DNA of 64,000 nucleotides from NCBI RefSeq assembly GCF_003324165.1, contig NW_025407858.1, forward strand, positions 390,735-454,734, written 5' to 3'. Below the pieces are notes generated by a model. It saw only the letters and a list, made by a program, of their open reading frames with translations. It was not told where the DNA came from and ran no database searches. Both the position numbers and the translations under genes were made by a program. Of this stretch, positions 22,975 through 25,588 are shown one piece after another (position 1 is the first letter of the stretch; each line of letters starts with the position of its first letter). This DNA is from Naegleria lovaniensis. Its lineage: Eukaryota > Heterolobosea > Eutetramitea > Acrasida > Naegleriidae.

Positions 22975-25588
22975 TTAATGACGTGATTTATGGCCCTTTT
23001 TCAAATCATCCACAAACTGACGACCAATGTTATGTGTTGATTCCATTGCAATATGTGTGGCGCTTCTTTCCATGTAATCCTTCGATTCGACATTACCAAG
23101 CTTGGCTAGCTCGCCAAACACAAACGAGTGACAGTCAAATAGGCACAAATGAAGAGGAGTCTGCAAATGGCAGTTAACATGGTTAACAAGACCCGGTGCT
23201 TTCTTGATTAATGCGAACAGCACATTGTAGTCTGTTTTGCTGCTCAACAGAAGATACAAGTGCAAAATTGTGTCACCCCGTTCATTCGCTCCAATAGAGT
23301 CAAATAGTTGCTGGTCCATGTTTTCTATTATTTTAACCATCAAGTAACTGTTACAATTGTTATCAAGTAGGAGTGTCATAATTGGAACAGTAACCACAAA
23401 CTCTTTGTTTGAAGGAGCTGATCGCTTGATCTTTTTCACAAGTAAGCGATAAAGTAAATCTCTCTTTCTCTTTGAAAGGTAGTACACTAAATCATTCAAA
23501 ACTTCAATCTTAGACTGGTAACAACAGTTCACCACAAGTGACTCAATGTCTTGCTCATCTACATGAAAATATTTGAGAGTGGAAACGATTATGGATGGAG
23601 CATTGGTGGTAAGAATAGCCAAAGGAAGGAAATGTCTGAGTTGAGTGGAAATGTTCCAACCATAGATTGCAGCGGTCAAAATCGTGTTCGAGCGAATAAC
23701 ATCCATATGTTTTTGAGCATTCATTAACATTCCACTCTGATATTCTTCACCAATATAAATCAAGTATTGTAGCAATGCATGTGATTTTGGACTTGTCATC
23801 AAAAAAATTGAACTCAAATTCAATGGAGTTAACAAATGGCCAAAGATGTGCTCTGCAATAGCTTTTGCTTTTAACATGTCTTGACTTTCGTTGTAAATGA
23901 GTTGGTGGATAATTTGGCATTCGTATAGCAAGTCAGCTCCAAAAAGATCAACCAATTCTTTTACATCTTGTAGCGTCAAATCACATGCAAGAATAATTAA
24001 AACATCTAAATCATGACCATGACCAGCAACCAAATTTTGAACAAGAGTTATTTCACTTCCTTTCTTGCGCTTAACATTGACATTTGCTGTATGAAACATG
24101 TGAAATACGGGAAAGGTAGTTGTAGTAGCATCTAATTGTGCCAACGGCTCAAAACTCAATTGTTTAAGGTTAGGCAAAAGCTGAGGATTCAGTATACTGG
24201 ATATAAAACTATTTAAATATTAGTCATCTGGATAGACCATCTCAATATGGAACTTACCTCGTCCAATACATTGAATTATATTCCATTGAACTATTCAAAA
24301 TGCGAATGTATTCTAGTGAATCGCTTTGTAAATTTAAATTGTAATTGAAGACAACATCTGTTGTTAAGAGCATGTCTAAACTTTTCAAAATCTTGCAACT
24401 TGAAACTAAAGAGTTCAAAAGAGTGCATGAATCTACATTGTCAACATAAATGGATATTCTTTCAATGGTGTGATTTTCAAATGTTTCAATGTTAGGATAT
24501 CCATAATTGTAGTCCAGAACTTCTTTGTGCTCACATAATGCCTCTGAATAAAGGTTTTTTTCTTCTGTTATGTCCTTAAGAGGGAAGGTATGCAGTCCAG
24601 TTTCAGAGAAGGAGGTTGTATCATTTACTCCATTTGTGTGATTGGAACGATTTTGTTGATATCTTTCAAGCAATTCCTGTTCCAAATTTTCTTGATCTAT
24701 TCTCGTGAAAATGTTCTCCACTGACTTCCCTTTTACTTCTTCGCAGACAGATCCCACATTCCCATTCACTGATTGCGATCTCCAATTACTATGCGTATTC
24801 ATGTGCTGAAATGAGTTATATGTCGCACCTGGGTAAAAACCACTATCCCAAATATTCGTAACGTTTGAGGAATTCCCATCGTTTGATTCATAAAGATAGA
24901 TTAGATCAATAGGTCGATTGTTGATGATATGGTCTTGTTGAGAATGCTGCAATTGCAACAATTGTATCAACTTGGGCCAATGTTGCTTCTTTAAAGGTCT
25001 ACAGATGCGTAGATGCTTCAGGGTAAGTAGTCTTCTAACCATTCTTCGATTCATTTCCTTATTAATTGATCTCAATTTATGGTATGTGACAATCGGCTCA
25101 TCAATTTTAAATTCAAGGTCGATGAATGAGTCTTTTACATTGCCATCACAAGGAGGATCAAATGTACTTCTTCTGGAATATGTAGGTAAAAAGCTCAAAA
25201 TCTCATACTTGAGATCAAGGCTCAGCTTTTTCAAATCATGAATCAACACGGCTTGTGAGTTCCGAGTCAATATATCATTCAAAGAAGAAGGCATTCTCTT
25301 CTTTTTTAGGTCCATGTAAATCCAATATTTTACTAAATCATCCACTGGGCCATATTTTGTGTTGATATATTCCACCAAAAGTTGTTCATCGTTGTGGCCT
25401 TCCATCATGATTGACGATGAAAATTTCTCCTTCAGTTTCACCACGTTCTTGAGTCTCTCCGCAAGCTCTTCCATATCCAAATCATGATCCATGGATAGTA
25501 CTGTGTCCATACCTTGCTGACCTCTGGTCTTCAATCCCTTTCTCGGTGCTTTGCCTCCGATGGATTTTCTGCAGGCTTGCCGAATCAT
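22975..25588 (-). CDS. F-box/ankyrin protein with histone H3 tail-like N-terminus
   Basis: Exons are 24258-25588 and 22975-24196, separated by a 61-nt intron (GTAAGT...CCAG); a second AG 12 bases upstream would add four residues in frame. The ATG at 25588 follows eight A; the frame is open upstream only from a GTG. The product has 850 residues. It begins M then IRQACRKSIGGKAPRKGLK, which aligns with the H3 tail ([17 protein letters not shown]), keeping the equivalents of Q5, R8, K9, S10, G12, G13, K14, A15, P16, R17 and K18. Residues about 120-175 are F-box-like (LSLDLKYEILSFLPTYSR). The middle has Leu-rich segments, and residues about 745-825 are ankyrin-like (GDTILHLYLLL, LQTPLHLCLF). F-box proteins are SCF ubiquitin-ligase adaptors; the tail could recruit H3-modifying or H3-reading proteins, which is inference. 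Confidence 0.8.
24197..24257 (-). other. Intron with two in-frame acceptor sites 12 nt apart
   Basis: The intron starts GTAAGTTCC. It can end at AATAG or 12 bases later at TCCAG. Both keep the frame, adding or omitting four residues. Confidence 0.55.

Follow-up and report, generated by a model that had tools for sequence, protein, structure and literature searches.

A histone H3 tail-like N-terminus in a multigene family of Naegleria and Willaertia proteins without a detectable histone fold

Results

The window gene and its surroundings

The window, a stretch of 64,000 nucleotides of the Naegleria lovaniensis contig NW_025407858.1 (C36 in the following), carries on its minus strand the two-exon gene that is the subject of this work, hereafter the window gene (Table 1). 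Among the open reading frames of the 64-kb window, the minus-strand ORF 25588-24254 opens with MIRQACRKSIGGKAPRKGLKTRG, its N-terminal letters being MIRQACRKSIGGKAPRKGLKTRGQQGMD. Fourteen sense codons separate its ATG from the preceding in-frame stop codon; no other in-frame ATG comes between them, and an A-rich run lies before the start. Once the 49-bp intron joins the exons, the product has 854 residues, in line with the length of about 850 given in an earlier note on this DNA. The neighbouring gene (25702-28008, minus strand, two ORFs) encodes a NIT sensing domain (E = 1.3e-17) and has a weak guanylate-cyclase match (E = 0.0033) that lies below the cut-off. A divergent H3 variant without the canonical tail overlaps positions 1-225 of the window (C36:390609-390959; L006, L007, and L008), and copies of equal score are found on contigs C46 and C72, beside the same neighbour ORF.

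Table 1. Coordinates of the window gene and of its features, in window positions
Feature	Positions	Strand	Remarks
Gene, two exons	25588-24258 + 24208-22975	minus	854 aa, no stop inside
H3-tail-like N-terminus, residues 1-19 (MIRQACRKSIGGKAPRKGL)	25532..25588	(-)	matches H3 Q5, R8-S10, G12-K18, L20
Exon 1, up to residue 443 and into the following codon	24258..25588	(-)	from reading frames
F-box-like segment, first half (HDLKKLSLDLKYEILSFLPTYS)	25175..25240	(-)	weak profile match; no Pfam match
F-box-like segment, second half (TYHKLRSINKEMNRRMVRRLL), beyond the insert	25025..25087	(-)	weak profile match
Intron, 49 bp, GT...AG	24209..24257	(-)	inferred from reading frames
Exon 2, ends with the stop codon	22975..24208	(-)	from reading frames
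Ankyrin-like C-terminal stretches (NERGDTILHL..., NCHLQTPLHL..., DYMERSATHI...)	23041..23286	(-)	picked by eye

The window gene opens with a worn H3 tail

The three canonical H3 genes of N. lovaniensis are the reference for all tail comparisons. Over H3 residues 1-20, the N-terminus of the window gene has 12 of 20 residues in common with them (Q5, R8, K9, S10, G12, G13, K14, A15, P16, R17, K18, and L20), and GGKAPRK lies within the match, which bears out the resemblance to the H3 tail described in the earlier note. The best ungapped BLOSUM62 score against H3 is 62, which is reached by none of 20,000 shuffled versions of the 40 residues compared (maximum 45); among the 94 ORF starts in the window, the next best scored 33. 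These shuffles and the tailed relatives described below leave chance resemblance, which the earlier note had already thought improbable, with a negligible probability, and it is rejected. An H3 origin of this N-terminus appears near certain. The copy has kept the K9-K18 part and has lost the ART end, Ala1 to T3 being absent and the protein starting with Met-Ile, and it is best described as a worn version of the H3 tail. The six peptide patterns tried against a viral sequence collection gave no match.

A multigene family in Naegleria and Willaertia

The window gene can be assigned by homology searches to a multigene family without Pfam domains. N. lovaniensis has at least 14 family loci (searches of its own genome with the Willaertia magna protein P0002 and with the window protein), and members are also found in N. 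gruberi, N. fowleri, and W. magna. Their bodies, taken as found or put together from ORFs, measure between 443 and about 1,100 aa. The first homology search, with exon 1 alone as query and a length window of 0.55-1.75 times 444 aa, retrieved four W. magna proteins, each opening with the exact H3 tail followed by (T/S)K. This length window excluded full-length relatives of about 850 aa, so that N. gruberi or N. fowleri may have an orthologue of the window gene that escaped the search. The second search scored part of its candidates, and 12 of the 120 matches listed (of 313) belong to the family, comprising at least ten W. magna entries under nine locus tags, with at least two from N. gruberi; the other 108 look histone-bearing by their Pfam annotation. 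The third, a profile search built from seven family sequences of N. lovaniensis, found three proteins and thus missed family members, so that we claim no species count. The N. lovaniensis protein C9374_004664 is 100% identical to the product of the C22 gene, and FDP41_001350 is the N. fowleri relative of that gene.

The tail is recognisable in four N. lovaniensis loci, namely the window gene, C22, and the near-identical pair C31 and C90, whose tail reads MARTRQTARKGICGKAPRAQ. C29 has at most a vestige (3/20 tail residues), and no tail is visible in nine of the 14 loci, the starts of several of which (C21a, C7, C53, and C57) are provisional. Hence, the tail seems to be dispensable in many copies. 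A search of the genome with the 32-residue H3 tail gave seven places, i.e., the three H3 genes, the C41 H3 gene, C22, C90, and C31; as it missed the window copy, other worn tails may be missed too. In W. magna, residues 1-20 agree with H3 throughout at four of the nine loci; the remaining five have 18/20, 11/20 (two loci), 7/20, and 3/20. The proteins identical to N. lovaniensis H3 over residues 1-20 are P0001, P0002, P0004, P0005, and P0011. The earlier note had held that loss of the segment in all close relatives would speak against it; some relatives instead carry a perfect H3 tail from Ala1 onward.

Several other features of these loci can be recorded. The near-identical tailed genes C31:254805-255176 and C90:11681-12034 (L014 and L024), one of them on a 19.8-kb contig, represent either a recent duplication or an allele. 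The C21a gene (L038, C21:488500-494000) shows no start and no tail, and the ORF directly upstream looks transposase-like by eye. FG-rich and FSFG-type linkers, nucleoporin-like, occur in C3, C53, P0004, P0005, P0006, and P0012, some of which are tailed and some tail-less. At about residues 310-400 of P0006, internal repeats (GGKAPIATTS...GGKGPLATKAPMKT) resemble H3 12-24, possibly by chance. Finally, the H3 gene at C41:252866-253345 (L052 and L004) is split as if by an intron, and its tail has an insertion.

The body is not a histone, and its C-terminal part looks ankyrin-like

Up to E = 10, no match to the histone fold PF00125 was found in any of the 19 scanned members. When the family profile was compared with the PDB, the 60 matches listed of 201 were H3 or H3-like chains, all of them within profile positions 1-74. 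This agrees with the earlier statement that nothing else in the protein looks like a histone, and the possibility of a degenerate H3 gene is rejected because the family has no histone fold. The PAF15 family (PF15715) matches only two of 19 members, and weakly (best E = 0.057).

The label F-box/ankyrin proposed in the earlier note finds partial support. The Ank_2 match of the window gene is below the cut-off (E = 0.049), and N. gruberi P0012 gives an ankyrin fold match with modest scores, to which the program attaches a warning; an ankyrin fold of the C-terminus is likely from fold prediction. Tail-less paralogues retain this C-terminal part. The Pfam F-box and F-box-like families match none of 19 members up to E = 10, as far as the HMMER filters permit, and of the stretches listed in the genome for PF12937 (147, with 150 of 364 candidates scored) and PF00646 (114, with 150 of 346 scored), none lies on a family locus. 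Alignment with hhalign of the family (22 of 24 sequences, Wm_P0004 and Ng_P0011 not fitting the pattern) to F-boxes of the same genome (19 of 20 loci, without L061) reaches a probability of 58% and E = 1e-4 only when the insert between the two halves is cut out; with the insert left in, these values are 2.3% and E = 0.02. Five column shuffles of each setting gave E of at least 0.33. The profile comparison is suggestive, and the F-box is best regarded as a weak resemblance. The fold-search matches listed name no F-box, their rows being filled by the C-terminal part, so that they are no evidence either way. In the model of P0012, which is poor (mean pLDDT 56), the tail is an unstructured stretch of low confidence (pLDDT < 50); a single-sequence model of the same protein has a mean pLDDT of 34.

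The fusion is probably older than the split of the two genera

The phylogenetic tree was built from 25 family proteins with their tails cut off, C31 and P0003 being left out. One can identify a Naegleria clade (clade A) with C29, C21a, C22, N. fowleri P0122, and N. gruberi P0011 (support 100/100) and a Willaertia clade (100/99). Clade B, which unites the window gene and N. gruberi P0012 with seven tail-less genes, is less firm (93/92). C90 and C7 form long branches, and the tree program warns that long rows, that of the window gene included, are unsurely placed. Tailed members are found in clade A (C22, P0122, and P0011), in clade B (the window gene and P0012), and in the Willaertia clade, as well as in C90. 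With tails in each of the three main clades, the fusion is probably older than the separation of Naegleria and Willaertia. The simplest account would be a single old fusion with later losses, independent gains being the alternative. The earlier note proposed a capture from an H3 gene; its H3 origin stands, and the event was probably not local to the window gene, as the tree and the perfect tails of relatives point to an old fusion near the root of the family, of which the window gene has a worn copy.

The amino acids of the tail are conserved while the body has diverged. N. gruberi P0011 and W. magna P0002 are identical in 22/22 tail residues versus 138/463 in the rest, where their longest identical run has five residues. 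C22 and N. fowleri P0122 are identical in the first 14 of 14 residues, in none of the next eight when aligned without gaps, and in 616/917 of the rest. The longest identical run in the tail versus elsewhere is 14 versus 25 for C22/P0122, 22 versus 23 for P0001/P0002, seven versus six for the window gene and P0012, and five versus five for C90/P0002; in close pairs, the tail is not distinguished by run length. With a fusion this old, selection as in H3 itself or renewal from H3 genes would account for the tail.

Residues and codons of the tail

Retention was counted in 15 rows with a tail or a vestige of one; the rows are related to each other and hence not independent. P0004 and C31, near-copies of P0005 and C90, respectively, were omitted, as was P0003, which has the locus tag of P0005. 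R2, T3, and Q5 are kept in 13/15 rows; A1 and R8, like the MAR start, in 12/15; A7, K9, G12, and G13 in 11/15; K4 in 9/15; and K14 in 8/15. The two Naegleria clades have kept different parts. In clade A, C22 and P0122 have residues 1-13 exactly and have lost K14 and K18; in clade B, P0012 and the window gene have lost the first residues and have R8-K18 almost whole. Common to these four are Q5 and R8-K9-S10-x-G12-G13, i.e., the H3K9 site. This site is not invariant in the family, as it reads ARRS in P0006, ARKT in P0010, and ARKG in C90, whose tail has 14/20 H3 residues.

The codons of the tail were compared within N. lovaniensis with the H3 genes L001-L003, without the C41 H3 gene. In the window tail, 5-7 of 12 codons for the same residue are identical, when 4.7-5.0 are expected from codon usage (7/12 versus 4.9 in the best comparison), and in C90 6-8 of 14, when 5.8-6.2 are expected (best 8/14 versus 6.1). 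These tails thus look old at synonymous sites, with their H3 residues kept. A recent local capture in the window gene is rejected, its codons being at background against the three H3 genes of the genome and its relatives being tailed. The C22 tail has 12/15 codons in common with L002 (5.7 expected, P ~0.001, one of nine comparisons), 11/15 with L001, and 9/15 with L003. In view of this likeness to L002, gene conversion may contribute to the conservation; an H3 gene may have renewed the C22 tail, or the two may share a codon bias.

Discussion

A tail that may be read as H3

The tail most likely serves to bring H3 writers or readers onto an ankyrin-like scaffold, a reading to which we give a probability of roughly 0.6. 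An H3 tail would have been fused to a non-histone scaffold, probably in a common ancestor of Naegleria and Willaertia, and would owe its retention to being read as H3. As a rule, the initiator methionine is removed before alanine. In members with the full tail, this removal would expose Ala1, and A1-R2-T3-K4 through K18 would form a free H3-like tail, offered to PHD-type readers, H3K4 or H3K9 methyltransferases, demethylases, or HP1-type chromodomains. The scaffold, made of the F-box-like segment and the ankyrin-like C-terminus, would hold these enzymes or readers, and it may act as an SCF receptor passing its bound partners to ubiquitination. H3 readers such as the PHD finger of UHRF1 require a free ART end. 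Because the window copy starts with Met-Ile, its methionine should stay and a free ART end cannot be presented; this copy would be usable as an internal K9/K14 site and not as a free H3 N-terminus. Candidate partners are encoded in the genome, with 10 PHD stretches at six places, 10 chromo stretches, two Pre-SET stretches, and Skp1. The genome also has three SRA stretches; in a search for a UHRF1-like ligase, the one frame examined (L076) has SRA alone in Pfam and thus gives no sign of a UHRF1. The function suggested in the earlier note, i.e., recruitment of H3 modifiers or readers or bringing a ubiquitin ligase to them, is plausible, its ubiquitin-ligase part being tentative. A more specific version, possible if doubtful, is that these proteins are H3-tail "lures", ankyrin-like and F-box-like, which would seize H3-modifying or H3-reading proteins, either the amoeba's own or those injected by intracellular bacteria or viruses, for ubiquitination.

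Other reasons for keeping the tail have to be weighed against recruitment. H3 is imported through its tail, which is recognised by histone karyopherins, and the tail of the family could be retained solely as such a nuclear import signal. It is basic, the window copy keeping R8K9...K14...R17K18, and some members have FG-rich, nucleoporin-like linkers. We nevertheless consider this unlikely: in C22 and N. fowleri P0122, residues 1-13 are intact, K14 and K18 are gone, and a second lysine-rich stretch follows downstream (PRSKKAK / PSKKPKRE), so that import does not explain the exact tail, and to our knowledge import signals normally do without exact residues. A passive relic of a single old fusion, occasionally refreshed by recombination with H3 genes and without function of its own, would account for the codons shared by C22 with L002, and to a lesser degree with L001 and L003, and for the many paralogues in which no tail is visible. 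This seems quite unlikely, as the window gene and C90 keep 12/20 and 14/20 H3 residues with codons at the usage background against L001-L003, as conversion tracts would repeatedly need to end at the coding tail in two genera, and as the MAR start is retained in most rows.

Two further explanations involve the ankyrin-like body and microbes inside the amoeba cell. Integrated decoys are used by plant immune receptors, and the tail could likewise act as bait by which a rapidly evolving family of sensors or degraders detects effectors that intracellular bacteria or viruses use to modify histones. The family is multigenic and strongly diverged, its hosts feed on bacteria, and the bait is exact in some members; according to passages of PMC10653858, the Legionella effector RomA methylates H3K14, in amoeba cells as well. 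As the body showed none of the known immune domains, and as divergence alone is no proof of an arms race, this explanation is improbable. The same paper reports that the ankyrin repeats of RomA bind H3 Thr3-Ala7 in a crystal structure and that those of G9a/GLP read methyl-lysine (PMC10653858), a precedent for H3-binding ankyrin repeats. The tail might then be a ligand for the ankyrin-like repeats of its own protein, locking it until real H3 tails or modifications displace it, which would fit the ankyrin-like C-terminus and the high retention of T3 and Q5. We regard this as distinctly improbable: the sole usable model, itself poor, predicts no contact and gives the tail a pLDDT below 50, and the C-terminal part is kept even in paralogues that have no tail. 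Recruitment of H3 writers or readers remains our preferred reading.

Comparison with known histone mimics

The family contains an H3-identical stretch in a non-histone protein, beyond chance, which is one mark of a histone mimic; another would be binding or modification of the stretch by H3 readers or writers. PAF15 (PCLAF) provides the closest precedent, being likewise a cellular non-histone protein with an H3-resembling N-terminus. PAF15 resembles H3 only partly, whereas the amoeba copy is exact over at least 20 residues in five proteins, has a large ankyrin-like body, and occurs in another phylum. SNAG domain proteins such as GFI1 and SNAIL occupy LSD1 as H3 does, and are thus also cellular proteins with an N-terminal mimic of the H3 tail; SNAG resembles H3 with little sequence identity, in which the amoeba tail differs. 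Canonical H3 and the H3 variants of the genome have the tail sequence in common with the family, which in contrast has no detectable histone fold. As described in parts of PMC7060239, the N-terminus of PAF15 is bound by the PHD finger of UHRF1 (Kd of 2.2 uM, versus 1.5 for H3) and is ubiquitylated by UHRF1, as H3 is. Short-motif mimics, such as ARKS in SARS-CoV-2 ORF8 and ARSK in influenza NS1 (passages of PMC10208167) or the EHMT substrates with an H3K9-like motif (passages of PMC10611923), also place an H3 motif on a non-histone protein, in several cases the K9 site. These consist of a few residues, whereas the amoeba family has most of the N-terminal tail, at the N-terminus, probably by inheritance from the ancestor of this host gene family.

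No description of the tailed family was found in the literature (open-access full text, titles, and starts of abstracts), which is no proof of its absence in print; term searches of PMC11702301, PMC2939574, and PMC8296547 show no passage on such a family. Histone mimicry is known, and what appears to be new is a host gene family in which a long H3 tail at position 1 looks ancestral. The mimics cited above, as far as the passages concerned describe them, are mostly short motifs; here a long position-1 tail is found in two genera on a body without a detectable histone fold. If the proteins are indeed lures, the host itself would be the maker of a long histone mimic placed at position 1. Antibodies against the H3 tail, and proteomics of tail peptides, could be confounded in these amoebae. 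The family also makes it straightforward to test whether the tail is acted on by writers and readers. In it, the tail has been parted from the nucleosome by evolution and not by engineering, which may show which H3 residues are worth keeping without DNA packaging.
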